From positions 1 through 14,522 of the forward strand of contig JALZVZ010000037.1 of assembly GCA_023299945.1 (NCBI GenBank): a DNA stretch of 14,522 nucleotides, read 5' to 3'. The translations under genes were made by a program, and so were the position numbers. The stretch is from Altererythrobacter sp. Lineage in GTDB: Bacteria > Pseudomonadota > Alphaproteobacteria > Sphingomonadales > Sphingomonadaceae. Of this stretch, positions 2,841-14,522 are shown one piece after another (positions within the stretch are counted from its first letter, which is position 1; each line of letters begins with the position of its first letter). Under the pieces are notes generated by a model. The model ran no database searches. It saw only the letters and a list, made by a program, of their open reading frames with translations, and was not told where the DNA came from.

Positions 2841-2911
2841 TATGCCCCCGCATTATGGGATGAAGGCGCAAATGACTACAGGCCAATGATAATATGGATG
2901 AGGGTACGCAC

Positions 2912-3607
2912 ATGAAAATTTCTAAGCAGTCGCAGATTGATCGCCGCATGATGTTGCGCGGAGGCGCGGCCAGTGCCCTGCTGCTGACGCTTCCCGCCTG
3001 TGCCAGCATTCCCGGCTTTGGCCTGACCGATGCAATCCAGCGCATTCTCTCGCTTTCCAGCCAGCGCGCCTTTGCTCGCTTGACCGAGCCTGATGGCTAT
3101 TGGGATAGCCAGATCGCGCAGGTTGGGCTGAGCAGTTTTCTTGGAGGATCGGGGAATTCGCTGGGTTCTTTGCTGACTTCTGGCCTGTTCAAAGGGCGGT
3201 TGCAAAGCGCCTTTGCCGGGATTGCGGAAAAAGGGGCGAATGCGGCGGCGCCAATTGTGACAGATGCGGTGCGCAATATCAGCATTGCGGACGCAGCGGC
3301 ACTGGTTGGCGGCGGGCCGACGGCGGCCACCAGTTTCTTGCAAGGACAGCTGGGCGACGGTCTGATTGGCGCGTTGGTGCCAGAGCTCGGGGGCGCGCTA
3401 AGTATCGCCTCTGACCCGCTTGTCGGCCAAGCGATCACGGCGCTGACCGGCAAGGATGTGAGCGCCATGGCAAACCGCGTCAGCAGCAGTGTTGACACTG
3501 CAATCTGGCGCGAGATCGGCGTGGAGGAGGCTGCAATCCGCGCCAATCCGCGCGCCACCAATGATCCGCTGCTGATTGGTGTGTTTGGCGCCGGTTCGGT
3601 TCTTTAA
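2912..3607 (+). CDS. DUF4197 family protein, probable Tat-exported lipoprotein
   Basis: The product is 231 residues and matches the DUF4197 family, whose biochemical role is unknown. Its N-terminus carries a twin-arginine pattern (RRMMLRG at 11-17), a hydrophobic stretch and a lipobox LPAC (27-30), so Cys30 is the likely lipidated residue. The residues after it (Ala, Ser) do not include the Asp that retains lipoproteins in the inner membrane, which suggests outer-membrane sorting. The mature part has the family layout: a helical region with QRAFARL, then a central IVTDAVRNISIADAAALVGGG segment followed by TAATSFL, and a C-terminal helix DTAIWREIGVEEAAIRANP. An in-frame ATG at 2894 would add six residues, but GAGGG at 2900-2904 sits at good distance from the ATG at 2912, so I chose the latter. 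The gene converges tail-to-tail with the DUF2490 gene with five bases between them. The family call is good; the Tat route is inferred. Confidence 0.88.
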   Translation: MKISKQSQIDRRMMLRGGAASALLLTLPACASIPGFGLTDAIQRILSLSSQRAFARLTEPDGYWDSQIAQVGLSSFLGGSGNSLGSLLTSGLFKGRLQSAFAGIAEKGANAAAPIVTDAVRNISIADAAALVGGGPTAATSFLQGQLGDGLIGALVPELGGALSIASDPLVGQAITALTGKDVSAMANRVSSSVDTAIWREIGVEEAAIRANPRATNDPLLIGVFGAGSVL

Positions 3608-3612
3608 AACCG

Positions 3613-4299
3613 TTAGAAGCGGGCGCCTAAGGTCACATTGGCAATATGCTGTGTGCGGTCTTCGCCGGGCCGAAAAGTGTGCTGGTTGAGATAGCCCGGC
3701 GTCAGCGAGAATTGCTTGCTGATCGGTACTGATACGCCCACGAAATTGCGCCAGACCACCACTTCATCGCTTTGAAAGCCAGCGGAATTGAGCGGGATGA
3801 ACGGCTCTGTGTAAACAATTAGATTGTTCGTCTCGCTAACCTTGGCGCGTACAGCAATTTGATTGCGGTAGCGCAGGGCAGTTCCGCCGGTTTCCTCCCA
3901 TGTTCGCTGTTCGAACCGATTGCGCGATGAAATCGTGACTGTGTCGTTGATCTCATGTTTGAGGTTCAATTCCTGGAAAAACCTGTGCTCATTGCTTTTT
4001 GCAGGTCCTTCTGGATCAGTCAGCACATAGGCATATCCGGCATAGACGCTTACGTCTTTGTCCACTTGATAGCCAATCGCGGGTCGAAGCAGCAATTGGC
4101 CAAGGCGTGATGCGTCATCGGTAAAGCGTTCCTGCGCTTCTAAGCGGATACGAAAATCCTTATCTGCTTCAATCGTCACCACTTGCGCTGTCCAGACGTT
4201 AAAATCTTCGTCTGTTGCTTTTGCTGCTGTCGCTGAAAATCCGGCCATTAGGCCAGCGGCTGCAGCGATGGCGGTAAGAAGATTTGGGGTGCGGCGCAT
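3613..4299 (-). CDS. DUF2490 family outer-membrane beta-barrel protein
   Basis: The product is 228 residues. The N-terminus is a classical Sec signal peptide (MRRTPNLLTAIAAAAGLMAG, cleavage probably in the ATAAKA region near residue 28). The rest alternates polar and hydrophobic residues in about ten predicted strands, with DUF2490 features: an early FNVWTAQVVTIEADKDFRIRLE-type strand pair, RPAIGYQ followed by VYAGYAYV, HRFFQELNLKHE, SRNRFEQRTWE, and an R-N-Q strand near residue 147. The chain ends in Phe (NVTLGARF), the usual recognition signal for the BAM outer-membrane insertion machinery. GGAG lies about eight bases before the ATG at 4299 (minus strand). The gene is divergent from the transaldolase gene across 155 bases. 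The function of DUF2490 proteins is not established; a small outer-membrane pore or structural barrel is the usual guess. Confidence 0.87.
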   Translation of the reverse strand: MRRTPNLLTAIAAAAGLMAGFSATAAKATDEDFNVWTAQVVTIEADKDFRIRLEAQERFTDDASRLGQLLLRPAIGYQVDKDVSVYAGYAYVLTDPEGPAKSNEHRFFQELNLKHEINDTVTISSRNRFEQRTWEETGGTALRYRNQIAVRAKVSETNNLIVYTEPFIPLNSAGFQSDEVVVWRNFVGVSVPISKQFSLTPGYLNQHTFRPGEDRTQHIANVTLGARF

Positions 4300-8438: not shown

Positions 8439-8449
8439 TTAGAAGTCTT

Positions 8450-8462
8450 GGAGAGATGTGTG
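8450..8462 (+). promoter_or_regulatory. Ribosome binding site that decides the GTG start of the CHAT gene
   Basis: GGAGA (8450-8454) is followed after five bases by GTG at 8460. The frame also has an upstream TTG at 8448, but that codon overlaps the Shine-Dalgarno. An ATG at 8456 is in another frame. The GTG start gives a cleaner signal peptide. Confidence 0.65.
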
Positions 8463-11400
8463 CGCCACCTTTTGTTGCGATCTTTAGCTGTATCCACTGC
8501 CATTGCGGCGATCTGTCCGCCCGTATTGGCGCAAGAACGCCCCGTTTTGGTGCGCGACAGTTTCCCCATTGGTGATGCCAGCGGTGTATTGTGCCAAGTG
8601 CAAGATCGCTCAATCGCAAACCCTGCGCGCCGCACGATGTTTGATCGCAGCTGGGCGGTTATCTGCCGCGACAGCGCCGTGCCCGTTGCCACGATCTATG
8701 CCTTTCAAGATTTGACCGAAGACGCACAAGGCCTGATCGCGCCTTATCGGCGAGAGGCTGTGGATTGCTCAAATGCAGCCGCGGCGACTAAGGGCGAGTT
8801 TGGCCTGACTCAGCGCTGCAAAGTCAGCGGCAGCGAGCTTGGTTGGAATGTTACCCAAACCCGGCAAATGAATGTCAGCTATATTGCTGAGGGGTTTGAA
8901 GCTTACGAAGGGGCAACCCTCTTGGCGCTGCGTTCACTCATTGCGAATAAGCCTGCGCCTGGCACGATTGATATCGCCACAACATCTGTTGCTGATCCCT
9001 TCGCCTTTGCCCGCGTGCAAGCGGGCACGCTTGAGCCGCAGCAGGCATTGGAAGAAGGCTATCGCCGCAATTTGGGCGGAGATTATGCCGAGGCTGGGGC
9101 CTATTTTGAAGCGCTGCAAAAACGGCTTGAGGATGAGAACAAAGGCGATGAGACGCGCGGCGAATTTCTAATCAACCGCGCTTTGCAGAAATCGAATTTG
9201 CAAGAATTTGCGGTGGCGGATCGTTTGTTTATCGAGGCGGACCCGCTCAATACGGGCAAGCCCGTGTCAGAGCGTTTGCAGCGCAATTTCGAAGCCATCC
9301 ACCTTATCAACCAAGGCTATTTTGACGATGCCTTGCTGCGTGCGCGCCAGCCTTTGTCGCAAGGTGTTCAAACGGCCATTGTGACAGAAGAAGGCTTGAA
9401 GATTTCGCAGCCAATTGCAGCGCGGCTCAACGCCGATACCGAAAGTGCGCGGTTGCTAGGCTTTGTCGATGATCTGTCGCTTTCGCCGATTGAGCGGGCG
9501 GAGATTATCGACGCACAAGCGCTGCAATTGCAGGGCACTTCGCTGAGAGTTTTGGGCCAGCGGGCCGAGGCGCGCCGCGCATTGCTCGACAGTTACACGC
9601 GCGCGATTGCCGTGCGCGATGGCCGCGTTGTGACGATTGTGCGTCTGCGGGCGCAAATCCTTGGTGAGCTGGCGGCTCTGTCTGAGGCAGATGGCAATAC
9701 GGGCCAAGCAGAGAGCTATCTGCGCTATGCGATCGACATTCTTCAGGCGCAATATCCAGAGCGGCGCGCGGTTAGCGGGGCAAAAGCGCGGCTGGCGTCA
9801 TTCCTGCTGCGCAAAGGTAAAGAAGCGCAGTCGCTGGCGCTGTATAATGAAGTAATTGATGAAAGCCTTGGCAAGCGTGATGCGGCCAGCGGCTTTGCCA
9901 ATCAGCTCGTGCCTTATTTTCGCTATCTTGCGCCTAGGGTCGAAAATGATCCCGCGATTGCAGCGGATTATTTTAAAGCACTGCAAGTTTTGGTTCGCCC
10001 CGGCGTTGCAGAAACGCAGGCGATTTTGGCGCGTGAGCTTTCGGCCAGTTCGGATGAGGCCGCGCGCCTATTCCGCCAATCGACCGATTTGGCGCGCGAG
10101 ATTGAACAGGTCCGCATTGGCGTGCGGGCGCTTAGCAATTCAGATAAGCCCGGCCTGGTCGTTGCGCAATTAGCCGAGCTGCAGGCGCGCCTCACCTCTC
10201 TGGAAAACCAGCAATTGCGCACTCAGGCTAAGCTGGGCGAGTTTCCCGAATATCGCGTGATTGCGCCCAAGGCTCTGACGCTCAGCGATTTCCGCAGCAC
10301 ATTGGGCGAGGGCGAGGCCTATTTGCGGCTTGCCAATGTGGGCGCTGATAGCTTTATGTTTGCTGTCAGTAAGACCGGCGTAAAAGCATTTCGCATTGAT
10401 CTGCCAGAGGATGAAATCGATTTTCTAGTCGATGTGATCCGCTCTTCGATTTATTCGCAAGAAGGCGGCCGCTTGGTCACCTATCCGTTTGATATGGATG
10501 CAGCCCATGCGCTCTATAATGCGCTGCTCGCCCCGATGGCGGGCCAATTGGCGGATATGAAACATCTGATCTTTGAACCTGATGGCGCGATGCTGCGGCT
10601 GCCGCTGGATTTGCTGGTGGCGGATAAAGCCTCGGTGGATCGTTACGCTGCGCGCACGGTCGATCCAGAAGCGGATGCATTTGATTTTCGCGGGGTCAAT
10701 TGGTTTGGCCGTGGCCGCTCAATCAGCACGGCGGTTTCAGCCAGCGCCTTTGTCGATGCGCGCGAGGCGCCTACCAGCAAGGCAGGACGCGAATATTTGG
10801 GCGTTGGCCGCAACGTGCCCGTTGGCGATGGCAGCGGCATCCGTGCCCTTGCGGTAAGCGGCAATGACACATGCGGGTGGAGCGCGCGTGAATGGAACCG
10901 GCCAATTGCTGACACGGAATTGTTCGCTGCTAGCCAAGTGGTCGGGGTGGACAAATCGCAGGTCCTCACCGGCGCGCAGTTCACCGATGATGGCCTCAAA
11001 GCAAAAGAGGATTTGTCTGATTTCAGGATCGTCCATTTTGCTACGCACGGCCTTGTAACACCGCCGCGCCCATCATGCCCCGCGCGCCCAGCCTTGCTGA
11101 CATCTTTTGGCGGTGAAGGCTCTGACGGATTGCTGAGTTTCCAAGAAATTTTCGACCTCGATCTGGATGCTGATCTGATTATTCTATCGGCTTGCGATAC
11201 AGCTGGCGGGGCGAGCATTGAGGCGACCAGAGCAGCCGGTGTCGGCAGCGGCGGCGGCACGGCTTTGGATGGGCTGGTGCGCAGCTTTATCGGTGCAGGC
11301 GGCCGCGCTGTTTTGGCCAGCCATTGGCCGGCGCCCGATGATTTTGATGCAACCGAACGCTTGATGAGCACGATGTTTAGCGAGGGAAAGACCCGTGACT

Positions 11401-11582
11401 TGGGTTCTGCTTTGCGCGCGTCGCAATATCGACTGATGGATGAGGCTAAGACCTCGCACCCATATTATTGGGCTGGCTTTGCGATCATCGGAGATGCCGC
11501 GCGGCCTTTGCTTAAGGGCAATACGAGGACCGCTGAGGCTCCGGCTGCAGCGCAAAACAACACAGATATGGCGGCAGAATAA
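8460..11582 (+). CDS. Exported TPR-CHAT protein (caspase-like peptidase), first gene of a two-partner secretion operon
   Basis: With the GTG start the product is 1040 residues. It begins with a Sec signal peptide (MRHLLLRSLAVSTAIAAICP, probable cleavage after VLA near residue 24). An N-terminal domain (about 25-130) has four Cys (45, 69, 103, 120), fitting disulfides outside the cytoplasm. Residues about 195-500 are helical repeats of TPR character (GYRRNLGGDYAEAGAYFEAL, GNTGQAESYLRYAIDILQAQ), followed by a coiled region to about 590. The C-terminal CHAT domain (about 690-1020) belongs to peptidase clan CD, like caspases and separase. Its catalytic His is in HFATHG (His863, codon 11046-11048) and the catalytic Cys in LSACDTAGG (Cys912, codon 11193-11195); the later ASHWPAPDD segment is also typical. 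The dyad is intact, so activity is plausible. Its stop is two bases from the start of the TpsB gene, so it is in one operon with it. A role in processing the TpsA partner is inference. Periplasmic versus surface location is unknown. Confidence 0.92.
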   Translation: MRHLLLRSLAVSTAIAAICPPVLAQERPVLVRDSFPIGDASGVLCQVQDRSIANPARRTMFDRSWAVICRDSAVPVATIYAFQDLTEDAQGLIAPYRREAVDCSNAAAATKGEFGLTQRCKVSGSELGWNVTQTRQMNVSYIAEGFEAYEGATLLALRSLIANKPAPGTIDIATTSVADPFAFARVQAGTLEPQQALEEGYRRNLGGDYAEAGAYFEALQKRLEDENKGDETRGEFLINRALQKSNLQEFAVADRLFIEADPLNTGKPVSERLQRNFEAIHLINQGYFDDALLRARQPLSQGVQTAIVTEEGLKISQPIAARLNADTESARLLGFVDDLSLSPIERAEIIDAQALQLQGTSLRVLGQRAEARRALLDSYTRAIAVRDGRVVTIVRLRAQILGELAALSEADGNTGQAESYLRYAIDILQAQYPERRAVSGAKARLASFLLRKGKEAQSLALYNEVIDESLGKRDAASGFANQLVPYFRYLAPRVENDPAIAADYFKALQVLVRPGVAETQAILARELSASSDEAARLFRQSTDLAREIEQVRIGVRALSNSDKPGLVVAQLAELQARLTSLENQQLRTQAKLGEFPEYRVIAPKALTLSDFRSTLGEGEAYLRLANVGADSFMFAVSKTGVKAFRIDLPEDEIDFLVDVIRSSIYSQEGGRLVTYPFDMDAAHALYNALLAPMAGQLADMKHLIFEPDGAMLRLPLDLLVADKASVDRYAARTVDPEADAFDFRGVNWFGRGRSISTAVSASAFVDAREAPTSKAGREYLGVGRNVPVGDGSGIRALAVSGNDTCGWSAREWNRPIADTELFAASQVVGVDKSQVLTGAQFTDDGLKAKEDLSDFRIVHFATHGLVTPPRPSCPARPALLTSFGGEGSDGLLSFQEIFDLDLDADLIILSACDTAGGASIEATRAAGVGSGGGTALDGLVRSFIGAGGRAVLASHWPAPDDFDATERLMSTMFSEGKTRDLGSALRASQYRLMDEAKTSHPYYWAGFAIIGDAARPLLKGNTRTAEAPAAAQNNTDMAAE

Positions 11583-11584
11583 TA

Positions 11585-13408
11585 ATGGAGAAAGCCATCA
11601 CACCTCTACGCAGTTTTGCCCGTCATAAACGCACTGGCTACACAAGCATGGGCGGGATGATCGCCGCCTTAGGCCTCGCGATGCCGAGCATGGTGTCCGC
11701 CCAAGCCATTGGCGCGCCGACACGCGAGGAAGTGCAGCGACAGGAGGTTGAAACCGAACTGCGCTCCGATGCCAATTCGCTGTCTGTCGCCAGTCAGATT
11801 GAGCGTGCTCCGTGTCCGCTGGCAGCAACCCAATTTGCCGATTTGAAATTCACCTTTAGCCGCGCTGATTTCACCGGATTGGGCGGCGTCGATGCGGCGC
11901 TGCTGGACCCGGTGTGGAGCGAATATATTGGGCAAGAAATTCCTGTGGCCACCATTTGCGAAATCCGCGACCGGGCCGCTACATTGCTGCGAGCAAAAGG
12001 CTACCTCGCCGCTGTCCAAGTGCCAGAGCAGCAAATTGGTGAAGGCGCGGTAAAGTTTGATGCGATCCTTGCGCGGATCAAAGCGGTGCAAGTGCGCGGC
12101 GATGCTGGAAACAACGCTGGCATGCTGGGTCGTTACCTTGATAAATTGCAGGGCCAGCCAGTCTTTAATGCCAATGATGCAGAGCGTTATTTGCTGCTGG
12201 CGCGCGATATTCCGGGCCTTGATGTGCGCCTGACCTTGCAGCCTTTGCCTGCCGATAAAGGCGGCGCGCCCGGCGATGTTGTGGGCGTGTTCGATGTGGC
12301 CAGCCAGCCTGTCATCATCGACACCAATATCCAGAACTTTGGATCACCAGCCGCTGGCCGGTTCGGCGGCTTGGTGCGTTTGCGCGCCAATGGTCTGACA
12401 GGGCTTGGTGATGAAACCATGCTCAGCGCCTATTCTGCGCAAGATTGGGATGAGCAATTGGTTGTGTCTGGTCATCACGAGTTTCGTGTTGGTTCTGAGG
12501 GACTGACTTTTGGCGTGGCGGGAACCATGGCCTATTCTGAGCCCGATATTCCTGGCCCTGACTTGTTCCGCTCTGAAACTTTCGTTGGGTCCGTATATGG
12601 TCGCTATCCGATTTTGCGCGGACAATCGCAAAATCTCGTGGTGTCAGCTGGCGCAGACTTGATCAATCAGAACGTTGATTTCAGCGGAATCGATTTTAGC
12701 AATGACAAATTGCGGGTTGGCTATGCACGGGTTGATTATGCGGGAATGGACCGCAATTCGATCAATGGCGTCGGCGGCTTTTCCTCAATCGAACCCGCGC
12801 ATTCTTACAGCGTGGCTTTGGAAGTGCGCAAAGGAATCGATATTTTGGGCGCAAGCCCCGGGTGCGGGGTTGGCTTCGCCAATTGCCTTGTGCCGGGTGC
12901 ACAAGTGCCCAGCCGCCTTGATGGTGATCCCACCGGCCTGCTGATCCGCGGCGAGACCAATGCAACCTTCCGCGCAACGCCTCTGTTTGGTGTCAGCGCC
13001 AAGGCTCGGTTCCAATATTCACCCGACGCCTTGCTAAGTTACGAGCAATTTTCTGGCGGCAATTACACCGTTGGACGCGGGTATGATCCAGGCGCGATTA
13101 TCGGCGACAATGGCATCGGCGTTCAGTTTGAGGCGTTTTATGGATCGCTGGTTCCGGCCACTCCTGATCAGGCAGCGGTTCAGCCGTTTATCTTCCTCGA
13201 TCTGGCGCGGGTATCGCTCAACAATGTGGCGAATGATTTTGACCGGCTGACGTCGGGCGGCGCCGGCATGCGCATGTCAATCGGCCGCCAAGCGGTGCTC
13301 GACGTGCTCGCTGCCGTGCCGTTCGAGCAGACGAATTTGGCCACGAATAAGGGCAGCGCGCGGGTCTTGATGTCGCTGACTGTACAATTGGCGCCTTGGT
13401 TCAAATGA
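11585..13408 (+). CDS. TpsB outer-membrane transporter, ShlB/FhaC/HecB family
   Basis: This 607-residue protein is the translocator of a two-partner secretion (type Vb) system, which moves one large beta-helical exoprotein across the outer membrane. A long signal peptide (1 to about 39, ending SMVSA) is followed by a helical stretch rich in Glu/Arg/Gln (47-60) that may match the plug helix H1 of FhaC. Then come POTRA1 (about 85-163, containing ICEIRDRAATLLRAKGYLAAVQVP) and POTRA2 (about 164-240, from IKAVQVRGD). The rest is a 16-strand-type barrel. The L6-loop signature is VGRGYDPGAIIGDNG (496-510), close to the family VRGY/F motif. Cys77 and Cys125 flank POTRA1, and Cys427 and Cys434 lie in one loop, so two disulfides are possible. 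The chain ends APWFK, so the usual terminal Phe is penultimate. It is translationally close to the CHAT gene (TAA, two bases, ATG) and to the TpsA gene. Confidence 0.95.
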   Translation: MEKAITPLRSFARHKRTGYTSMGGMIAALGLAMPSMVSAQAIGAPTREEVQRQEVETELRSDANSLSVASQIERAPCPLAATQFADLKFTFSRADFTGLGGVDAALLDPVWSEYIGQEIPVATICEIRDRAATLLRAKGYLAAVQVPEQQIGEGAVKFDAILARIKAVQVRGDAGNNAGMLGRYLDKLQGQPVFNANDAERYLLLARDIPGLDVRLTLQPLPADKGGAPGDVVGVFDVASQPVIIDTNIQNFGSPAAGRFGGLVRLRANGLTGLGDETMLSAYSAQDWDEQLVVSGHHEFRVGSEGLTFGVAGTMAYSEPDIPGPDLFRSETFVGSVYGRYPILRGQSQNLVVSAGADLINQNVDFSGIDFSNDKLRVGYARVDYAGMDRNSINGVGGFSSIEPAHSYSVALEVRKGIDILGASPGCGVGFANCLVPGAQVPSRLDGDPTGLLIRGETNATFRATPLFGVSAKARFQYSPDALLSYEQFSGGNYTVGRGYDPGAIIGDNGIGVQFEAFYGSLVPATPDQAAVQPFIFLDLARVSLNNVANDFDRLTSGGAGMRMSIGRQAVLDVLAAVPFEQTNLATNKGSARVLMSLTVQLAPWFK

Positions 13409-13414
13409 GCCGGC

Positions 13415-13428
13415 GGGAGAGCATGATG
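13415..13428 (+). promoter_or_regulatory. Ribosome binding site choosing among clustered ATG codons of the TpsA gene
   Basis: GGGAGAG (13415-13421) is followed by in-frame ATG codons at 13423 and 13426, with others at 13405 (overlapping the tpsB stop as ATGA) and 13441. The spacing from GGAG to 13426 is six bases and best fits a working start; 13423 is too close. Confidence 0.55.
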
Positions 13429-14522
13429 ACGAGCAAAACAATGAACTCGAACCAACGCACAGCGCGCAAACGCTGGCTTGGCAGTGGATCCGTTTTGGCA
13501 GGCGCGACAGCTCTTGTTGCGCTTTCCAGCGCTAGCGAAGCGCAGGCCCAATCAACTATGGTTGCGCCGCGAATGCAGAATGCAGCTCCCAATGTTTTGG
13601 CCGCGCGCCAAATGGTACAGCGCGCTGCGCCCAGAGAGACCGCTGGTGAGACAGTTTCTATCCCGCGTGTGCAGCAAAACCTCCCGAACAATCAGGCGAT
13701 CCTGCCCAATGCGCGCGTCAATATGGTTGCGCCGACCCAGCAGCAGCAAATCAACATTGCGCCGGCTCCAGCAGCCCCGTCTACGCCCGCCGCCAATGGC
13801 CTCTCCGTGCCTATTCCCCAAGCCCAGGGTACGCAGCAAACCGGCTTTTCCGTGCAGCCGTTAGCAGCTTCGGTATCGGGCGTTGCGGGGATCAATGTGT
13901 CTGCTGAGGCGGCCTTTGATGATGCGCGGATCGATTTTATTGCCGGTATTGCCGTTGATACCGTCGACGTGCTGGCATCGTCTGCCATCATTGATTGGAC
14001 AACAGATACCGCGGGCGCAGCCGGTACAGAGGTCAGTTTTCTGAATGCGGGTAGAAACCTCGCATTCGTCTCATCAAATCAATCCGACTATACGGTTCTC
14101 AACCGTGTTTTCACCCCAGGATTTGACAGCGCAATCCGCATTGACGGCAATGTCACATCGACCGTTCAGGGCGGAATAACCGGCGGCAATATCTGGTTCT
14201 ACAGCCCTGGCGGCATTGTCATTGGTTCCAATGCGGCGTTCAATATTGGCAGCTTGCTTCTCACCACCAGCGCGCCTGATCCGCTTGATGTGGGGGGCAA
14301 TTTCGATGTCAGTTTTCTCGGCACGCCTGATACGAACTCTTTCATTCGGATTGAGGATGGCGCCTCGATCACGGCCAATAATAACAATTCCTATATCGCT
14401 ATGGTTGCGCCGCGTATTGAGCAAAACGGCGAGGTTCGCGCCAATGGGTCGATTGCTTATGTGGCCGCTGAACAAGCCACATTGACGATCGATAACGGGC
14501 TTTTCGACATTAGTGTCGATGT
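13426..14522 (+). CDS. TpsA exoprotein with N-terminal haemagglutination-activity (TPS) domain, 3' end outside window
   Basis: The frame is open from the start to the window end (365 complete codons). The N-terminus is basic (RTARKRWLG) then hydrophobic, with a signal peptide cleavage likely at EAQA (38-41). Residues about 42-145 are rich in Pro, Gln, Ala and Asn without predicted fold. The TPS domain follows: SFLNAGRNLAFVSSNQSDYT (204-223), then VLNRVFTPGFDSAIRIDGNV, GGNIWFYSPGGIVIG (253-267) and SNAAFNIGSLLLTTS (268-282). These match the family pattern NRI...I.G.V, N.FLINPNGI.FG, A..NVG.L.AST, with SPGG in place of NPNG. Further rungs (EDGASITANNNNSYIAMVAP and GEVRANGSIAYVAAEQ) begin the beta-helix. 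It is the substrate of the TpsB upstream. What it does after secretion (adhesin, haemolysin, matrix component) cannot be said because the C-terminal part is missing. The long segment before the TPS domain is unusual for the family. Confidence 0.88.
   Translation, partial: MTSKTMNSNQRTARKRWLGSGSVLAGATALVALSSASEAQAQSTMVAPRMQNAAPNVLAARQMVQRAAPRETAGETVSIPRVQQNLPNNQAILPNARVNMVAPTQQQQINIAPAPAAPSTPAANGLSVPIPQAQGTQQTGFSVQPLAASVSGVAGINVSAEAAFDDARIDFIAGIAVDTVDVLASSAIIDWTTDTAGAAGTEVSFLNAGRNLAFVSSNQSDYTVLNRVFTPGFDSAIRIDGNVTSTVQGGITGGNIWFYSPGGIVIGSNAAFNIGSLLLTTSAPDPLDVGGNFDVSFLGTPDTNSFIRIEDGASITANNNNSYIAMVAPRIEQNGEVRANGSIAYVAAEQATLTIDNGLFDISVD
13558..14414 (+). repeat. Three in-frame copies of ATGGTTGCGCCG (Met-Val-Ala-Pro) in the TpsA gene
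   Basis: The exact 12-mer ATGGTTGCGCCG occurs at 13558, 13723 and 14401, always in the reading frame and encoding MVAP at residues 45, 100 and 326. The first and third copies share 14 bases and encode MVAPR. The first two copies lie in the Pro/Gln-rich segment, the third in the TPS domain, where a similar LIAP-type motif is usual. The first two may therefore be local duplications, recurring processing sites, or coincidence. Confidence 0.4.

Follow-up and report, generated by a model that had tools for sequence, protein, structure and literature searches.

A CHAT-domain protease gene recurs beside two-partner secretion genes in Alphaproteobacteria, with a conserved island in the exoprotein tail

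The 14,522-bp window analyzed here, the entire contig JALZVZ010000037.1 of an Altererythrobacter sp. genome (GCA_023299945.1, Sphingomonadales), ends in a three-gene operon encoding a CHAT-domain protease, a TpsB outer-membrane transporter, and the N-terminal part of a TpsA exoprotein of a two-partner secretion (TPS) system. The CHAT protein has its catalytic dyad, its gene recurs beside TPS genes in other genomes, the operon is a version of a five-gene module whose blocks are permuted from locus to locus, and many TpsAs encoded beside CHAT share a short island near the C terminus. A conserved tail next to an operon-encoded protease suggests a dedicated hold/release switch for a surface protein. 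By analogy with the protease LapG and the adhesin CdrA, CHAT may be a periplasmic cysteine protease that cuts the TpsA tail and is coupled to a CHASE2-domain cyclase, a reading to which we give not quite an even chance. Possible but more doubtful is the fuller scheme, in which a dedicated CHAT would read the tagged tail, the cyclase and an accompanying protein X would signal the event as a cyclic nucleotide, and the whole would be a counterpart of the Lap system made of unrelated parts.

The operon and its CHAT protein

The plus strand has open frames at 8448-11582 and 11585-13408 and a third that runs from 13396 to the end of the window. Because tpsB starts at ATG 11585 and tpsA at ATG 13426, neighboring genes on this strand are separated by only 2 and 17 bases. 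The first frame opens at TTG 8448, and a GGAGAG upstream of GTG 8460 makes the latter the preferred CHAT start. Frames, starts, and Pfam matches agree on the three-gene operon originally predicted (Table 1). The CHAT domain (PF12770) scored 171.8 bits against a cut-off of 24; TpsB matched ShlB (48.6; cut-off 22.7) and, weakly, POTRA_2 (25.2; cut-off 24); and TpsA matched the TPS domain PF05860 (41.7; cut-off 33.5). The transporter combines the POTRA_2 domain (barely over its cut-off) and ShlB barrel of a type Vb TpsB, and the exoprotein has the N-terminal TPS domain and the adjoining tpsB of a type Vb TpsA. This TpsA is cut at 375 amino acids, after the TPS domain, and its C terminus is unseen because the window is the entire contig (G000:C37). 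The host is an Erythrobacter-like sphingomonad: a CHAT protein named as Erythrobacter sp. (P0002) is 81% identical, and the best named locus (L106), from an uncultured Altererythrobacter metagenome-assembled genome, reaches 92% identity over its best segment.

Table 1. Coordinates of the operon features within the window
Feature	Position	Strand	Basis or remark
Gene for the CHAT protease (TPR-like solenoid, then CHAT domain)	8460..11582	+	GTG 8460 start; frame opens at TTG 8448; Pfam and profile match to TPR structures
Predicted Sec signal peptide, ..CPPVLA/QERP	8460..8531	+	end placed by eye; rough scoring rule
CHAT domain PF12770	10500..11495	+	Pfam
Catalytic His H867 (numbering from 8448)	11046..11048	+	invariant, 38-row alignment
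Catalytic Cys C916 (numbering from 8448)	11193..11195	+	invariant, 38-row alignment
TpsB outer-membrane transporter	11585..13408	+	POTRA_2 ~11852-12055, barrel match ~12800-13276 (Pfam)
TpsA exoprotein, N-terminal part, cut at contig end	13426..14522	+	TPS domain 14086-14478

The His-Cys dyad, which together with the PF12770 match places the protein among CHAT peptidases, is intact, and its His and Cys motifs were each present in 97 of 99 TPS-linked CHATs. Besides C916, the 38-row alignment has five more invariant cysteines (C49, C73, C124, C809, and C877), a pattern that suits an oxidizing compartment or disulfides in an exported protein. The TPR half of the TPR-CHAT architecture first proposed fell below the Pfam cut-off in the window protein itself and was recovered only with the 38-row CHAT profile, which matched TPR structures (best, kinesin light chain, E 7e-13; profile positions 290-511 within one chain). 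No solved CHAT relative was found in PDB by sequence up to an E value of 10. Based on a home-made rough rule, the CHAT protein has the export-type N terminus that had been predicted, as do 103 of 137 CHAT-family proteins, compared with 156 of 688 other genes of the loci. From these features we infer a probable periplasmic protease.

Recurrence of the neighborhood and the larger module

Co-occurrence was surveyed in 241 genomes drawn across the Alphaproteobacteria and not seeded with TPS-linked CHATs. Places on draft contigs were counted, links broken at contig ends being missed; split pieces of a frame were treated as one place, and two weak places that scored below the CHAT cut-off stayed in the count. 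CHAT was found in 50 genomes, ShlB in 73, and TPS in 56. Of 83 CHAT places, 20 had a ShlB place no more than 20 kb away, versus 0.63 expected at random and a maximum of 5 in 2,000 simulations, and chance neighbors were accordingly rejected; the link occurred in 18 of the 25 genomes carrying both. The neighborhood recurs in near relatives as well, where a CHAT family search of 41 genomes found 14 positive, including several CHATs without a TPS gene nearby (L041, L042, L044, and L045). At L043 (G020:C1), a complete TPS-CHAT operon is accompanied by a second CHAT (8754-11546) at a distance of ~5 kb.

The original prediction went too far in making CHAT the constant third partner of TPS: only 20 of 105 alphaproteobacterial ShlB places had a CHAT within 20 kb, so CHAT is better described as a frequent partner of one TPS branch. 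Its placement at the head of the operon likewise applied to only 2 of the 20 linked places in the class survey (CHAT-TpsB-TpsA), 14 being TpsB-TpsA-CHAT (one a remnant) and the rest other orders or opposite strands; CHAT-led operons are common among the sphingomonad loci described below. A decayed-looking tpsB, tpsA, and chat remnant was seen within 2 kb at L078:8445-10432 (G266:C25), with a full-length set on contig C22 (L077) of the same genome.

Outside the class, a ShlB search of 53 selected genomes led to TpsB-CHAT neighbors in at least six genomes of other Pseudomonadota. Among six cyanobacterial plasmid regions, a hemagglutinin-type gene was found in two, CHAT-Chase2 in that of Calothrix, and neither was annotated nearby in three, which bears out the original suggestion that CHAT genes occur near TPS genes in this phylum. 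On the Gloeothece citriformis PCC 7424 plasmid, genes for CHASE2, CHAT, filamentous hemagglutinin N-terminal, and BamA/TamA proteins are clustered on mixed strands with a sulfotransferase gene between, and on the Trichormus variabilis plasmid a hemagglutinin-type gene precedes CHAT.

In relatives, a fourth gene beside CHAT encodes a CHASE2 domain and an adenylate/guanylate cyclase. It is accompanied by protein X, ~250 residues long. Of 71 X proteins, 58 have an export-type N terminus by the rough rule; five X proteins searched as members of a known family gave no Pfam match above cut-off. The recurring blocks, in permuted order, are TpsB-TpsA, CHAT, and CHASE2-cyclase plus X. We mapped 80 named loci, the best 80 of at least 548 relatives matching a profile whose seeds were TPS-linked CHATs; this choice of query biases the linkage rate among them (a TPS gene beside CHAT in 69). 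One TpsB-TpsA-CHAT locus is that of Qipengyuania flava DSM 16421 (L150). In four of the other 11, a TpsA-like frame ends directly upstream (L135, L157, L159, and L168); a fifth (L175) has a TpsA-like frame with an island-like end, and the last six touch contig ends. The orders were CHAT-cyclase-TpsB-TpsA (30 loci), TpsB-TpsA-CHAT (27), TpsB-TpsA-CHAT-cyclase (5), CHAT-TpsB-TpsA (3), and others that were rarer. Median gaps, measured from longest frames with some loci fetched twice, were -7 bases for TpsA-CHAT (n = 53), 3.5 for CHAT-cyclase (n = 58), and -1 for CHAT-TpsB (n = 9); the gap was longer only before TpsB in X-TpsB pairs (median, 102 bases). CHAT distances correlated with those of TpsB (r = 0.88, n = 93) and of the cyclase (r = 0.96, n = 55), with 0 of 2,000 shuffles reaching either value, and these correlations partly reflect species history.

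The annotation of Sphingobium herbicidovorans MH plasmid pMSHV lists a five-gene run of CHAT, CHASE2, a hypothetical protein, ShlB, and a large hypothetical protein. Directly upstream of CHAT on this plasmid is a gene for a Crp/Fnr-type regulator (L231:11362-12000) that might receive the cyclase signal; as a part of the module it was rejected, no relative of the pMSHV protein being found at E 1e-5 in the other mapped loci.

We also built a FastTree phylogeny of 132 CHATs, which leaves the deep forks unsure. The window CHAT falls in a starred clade of seven CHAT-TpsB-TpsA loci, which nests within a starred clade of 38 whose remaining members are CHAT-cyclase-X-TpsB-TpsA loci, two of them cut short. 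Based on this nesting, the cyclase-X pair was most likely lost from the operon in the window lineage, making the window operon a reduced module. The window genome retains a cyclase-X pair on contig C98 (L226, 651-2744 and 2716-3462; CHASE2 and cyclase domains checked), with a cyclase 58% identical to the nearest operon cyclase, and in G008 and G018 such a pair lies near a different TpsB gene (L063 and L062). The larger module includes the CHASE2 cyclase and X, which lie outside the window and so escaped the original CHAT-TpsB-TpsA description. Across the tree, the TPS link changed state 9 times and the position of CHAT before or after the TPS genes 3 times.

A second TpsB branch (~550 amino acids), without CHAT, was observed at L056 to L065 (G006, G016:C60, G013, G021, G003, G000:C168, G018, G008, G010:C27, and G024:C45), with a CHASE2 protein close by in 8 of these 10 loci. 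The sole one examined (L057) carries CHASE2 plus EAL, a cyclic di-GMP domain, so a Lap-like link with TpsB is worth considering in this branch. Elsewhere in the window, adjoining genes encode DUF2490 (3613-4299, minus strand) and DUF4197 (2894-3607, plus strand) proteins of unknown function.

The island near the TpsA C terminus

Sphingomonad TpsAs encoded beside CHAT share an end island, (D/E)(D/E)PV(T/A)(S/G)(G/A)G(N/D)xxL(W/Y), followed by a median of ~15 residues; variants such as GSEEIW, GNEALW, and GKDALW occur outside sphingomonads. In the complete TpsAs of the window's relatives (L028, L224, and L225), DDPVTGAGNEDFW or DEPVTGAGNEDFW is found near the end; G008, G018, and G023 have ends of the GAGNEDFW type, and a similar end is predicted for the window's TpsA. 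We examined 78 TpsA rows with 70 distinct ends, excluding 13 other frames near CHAT as not TpsA and two ends fetched later (L251 and L252), both without the pattern. As controls, 39 TPS-domain frames with no CHAT within 20 kb on the same contig were chosen by hand, of which 9 were cut by contig ends and 30 were used. The core pattern G[NDSK]xx[LIVFR][WYF] was present in the last 70 residues of 42 of the 70 linked TpsAs and in 0 of the 30 controls, at least three of which (L195, L200, and L209) have doubtful ends due to a frameshift or masked bases. Its background was 144 in 2,103 internal 70-residue TpsA stretches and 1.4% of shuffled tails.

A held-out profile, from which similar tails were removed, was applied to 49 sphingomonad and 18 other TpsAs, leaving out L054, L082, and L164 (broken frames; the L054 genome yielded no CHAT), and 48 of the 49 scored above the best control. 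The 14 island columns each carried 1.0 to 4.5 bits of information, and most other columns stayed under 1 bit, apart from six at 1.1 to 1.6 bits farther upstream. Among 48 island-bearing tails, exactly two cysteines follow the island in 8, none in 40, and a single one in 0.

Conservation of the tail as a by-product of tpsA-chat overlap was ruled out, since the island is retained where TpsA is the last gene (L028, L132, L179, L224, L225, L231, and L240). Sortase and exosortase signals consist of a motif followed by a hydrophobic helix and a basic end; such sorting was rejected for these tails, which are by eye hydrophilic and often acidic beyond the island. We also sought a tail for CHATs without TPS genes: in 25 loci of this kind with 304 genes in all, a stricter pattern gave two matches, neither convincing. 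Separately, TpsAs not beside CHAT at L190 to L194 (G050, G071, G166, G247, and G272) have in common a different conserved sequence at the extreme C terminus, approximately PxKQxRN or PxKQxRY, a tail tag of another kind.

Proposed mechanism, alternatives, and known systems

An export-type cysteine protease in the operon and a conserved island in its neighbor are the grounds for proposing that CHAT cuts the TpsA tail. Sec would export CHAT into the periplasm, and TpsB would move the giant TpsA outward N terminus first, while its C-terminal tail would stay periplasmic; CHAT would then recognize the island and make a cut in it or close by, and TpsA would thereby be released or matured. The tails of CdrA and FhaB are reported to stay in the periplasm in this way, and LapG is reported, from deletion mutants and western blots, to free the TPS adhesin CdrA. 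In many relatives, the CHASE2 cyclase, with a periplasmic sensor and a cytosolic cyclase, would act with X to turn the state of the tail, CHAT, or TpsB into a cyclic nucleotide signal; in the window lineage, the pair has most likely left the operon. CHASE2 cyclases of S. meliloti are reported to raise cyclic AMP through an outer-membrane barrel protein, and so the module's cyclase may respond to any of TpsB, X, CHAT, and the tail itself. If true, this would give bacterial CHAT proteins a periplasmic role, point to a short tail as what they probably cut, and tie surface display to CHASE2 cyclases. The candidate protease is operon-encoded repeatedly across the Alphaproteobacteria, and CHAT-TPS neighbors extend to other Pseudomonadota classes and Cyanobacteria.

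A number of observations weigh against tail cutting. The end of the window's TpsA was not found in its own genome (90% complete; query, a relative's TpsA end). Outside Sphingomonadales the held-out profile passed only 7 of 18 linked TpsAs (core pattern, 14 of 18). Several other alphaproteobacteria have a weak island or none, and it is missing in both cyanobacterial TpsAs examined and in all three TpsA ends of a five-gene CHAT-X-cyclase-TpsB-TpsA branch (G002, G015, and G502; L040, L251, and L252). Shared descent of the linked TpsAs explains part of the island's conservation, just as species history explains part of the distance correlations. Seven TpsB-CHAT loci of other Pseudomonadota classes (L232 to L238) have no TpsA between and shorter CHATs (~720 to 810 amino acids), two alphaproteobacterial plasmid CHATs have no TPS gene annotated nearby, and 85 of the 105 ShlB places lack a CHAT within 20 kb. 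CHAT also adjoins CHASE2 cyclases in loci free of TPS genes (L091, L092, L094, L104, and L105; domains checked), and on the Calothrix plasmid CHAT is followed by a Chase2 sensor gene with no TPS gene, so TpsA need not be its substrate. Based on the TPS-free CHASE2-CHAT loci, the island-free branches, and the TpsB-CHAT loci without TpsA, the role of CHAT may be other or wider, and the tail tag may have been acquired later as a specialization.

The same TPS-free loci and Calothrix plasmid favor the alternative that CHAT and the CHASE2 cyclase are an older envelope signaling pair, with TpsA-TpsB serving solely as sensor input in the form of a surface filament and X, the cyclase, or another periplasmic protein as the CHAT substrate. 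The tighter of the two distance correlations is that between CHAT and the cyclase, the island is lacking in the branch that has all five genes, and the S. meliloti cyclases are reportedly fed through an outer-membrane barrel, all of which fit such a pair. Against it, 27 of the 80 named loci are TpsB-TpsA-CHAT sets whose fetched flanks, the only part of these genomes covered, gave no strong match to a cyclase, and the island or a variant is present in loci of this kind (L129, L141, L144, and others); we regard this alternative as rather unlikely.

It is improbable that CHAT serves in quality control, degrading, with no set cut site, any TpsA that stalls in TpsB or the periplasm while the island serves TpsB or folding. 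TpsA is huge (4,495 amino acids in L225), so stalling would be a real cost, and DegP is reported to act on FhaB, but a narrow island that is present in CHAT-linked TpsAs and absent from controls would not be expected of general degradation. A conflict system, in which an invader or neighbor triggers CHAT, as for TPR-CHAT in Craspase, and TpsA displays or delivers, is very improbable: TPR-CHAT is reported to work in Craspase and TPS systems to deliver toxins, but CHAT here has an export-type N terminus and the TpsA ends are short and hydrophilic (judged by eye, with no search for toxin or immunity domains). That the neighborhood has no function is scarcely credible given 20 linked places against 0.63 expected and blocks that are permuted but retained, even with 63 of 83 CHAT places and most ShlB places unlinked within 20 kb, some possibly through contig ends.

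The gene families are known, and as far as literature searches go, the CHAT-TPS combination and the tail tag are undescribed; in the mostly open-access literature, no publication was found that joins the CHAT domain with two-partner secretion or CHAT with HecB. LapG is a cysteine protease of another peptidase family than CHAT, and a LapG homologue was rejected here since the sole Pfam match of the protease is CHAT. The closest parallel to tail cutting by CHAT is CdrA-CdrB/LapG/LapD of Pseudomonas aeruginosa, in which a periplasmic protease, itself controlled through a cyclic nucleotide, is reported to free a TPS exoprotein held by a proposed C-terminal cysteine hook; the two cysteines after the island in 8 of 48 tails recall this hook. 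The CdrA tail motif differs from the island, and LapG, according to a review's list of maturation proteases, is not encoded in the TPS operon, whereas CHAT is. LapD is reported to bind cyclic di-GMP, whereas the CHASE2 cyclase here would make a cyclic nucleotide.

In Bordetella, FhaB is likewise reported to undergo periplasmic processing of its C-terminal part, started by DegP and involving CtpA and SphB1, proteases of other families than CHAT. The TPR-CHAT protein of Craspase is cytosolic. Csx29 of the type III-E CRISPR system is described as a TPR-CHAT, caspase-like protease similar in architecture to that of the window, but Craspase is RNA guided, whereas the window CHAT is accompanied by TPS genes and begins with an export-type N terminus. 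No Cas-like match was found among seven window frames run through Pfam, no dedicated Cas search being made. S. meliloti CyaD1/CyaD2/CyaK with NsrA resemble the module in joining CHASE2 adenylate/guanylate cyclases to an outer-membrane barrel protein, and the FecR-domain protein SMc02177 is reported as a Clr target there; the excerpted description of this system mentions neither CHAT nor TPS genes. Finally, HMW1ABC and HxuCBA are three-gene TPS operons with a dedicated partner, as here, their partner being a glycosyltransferase or a TonB-dependent transporter, whereas that of the window is a protease.

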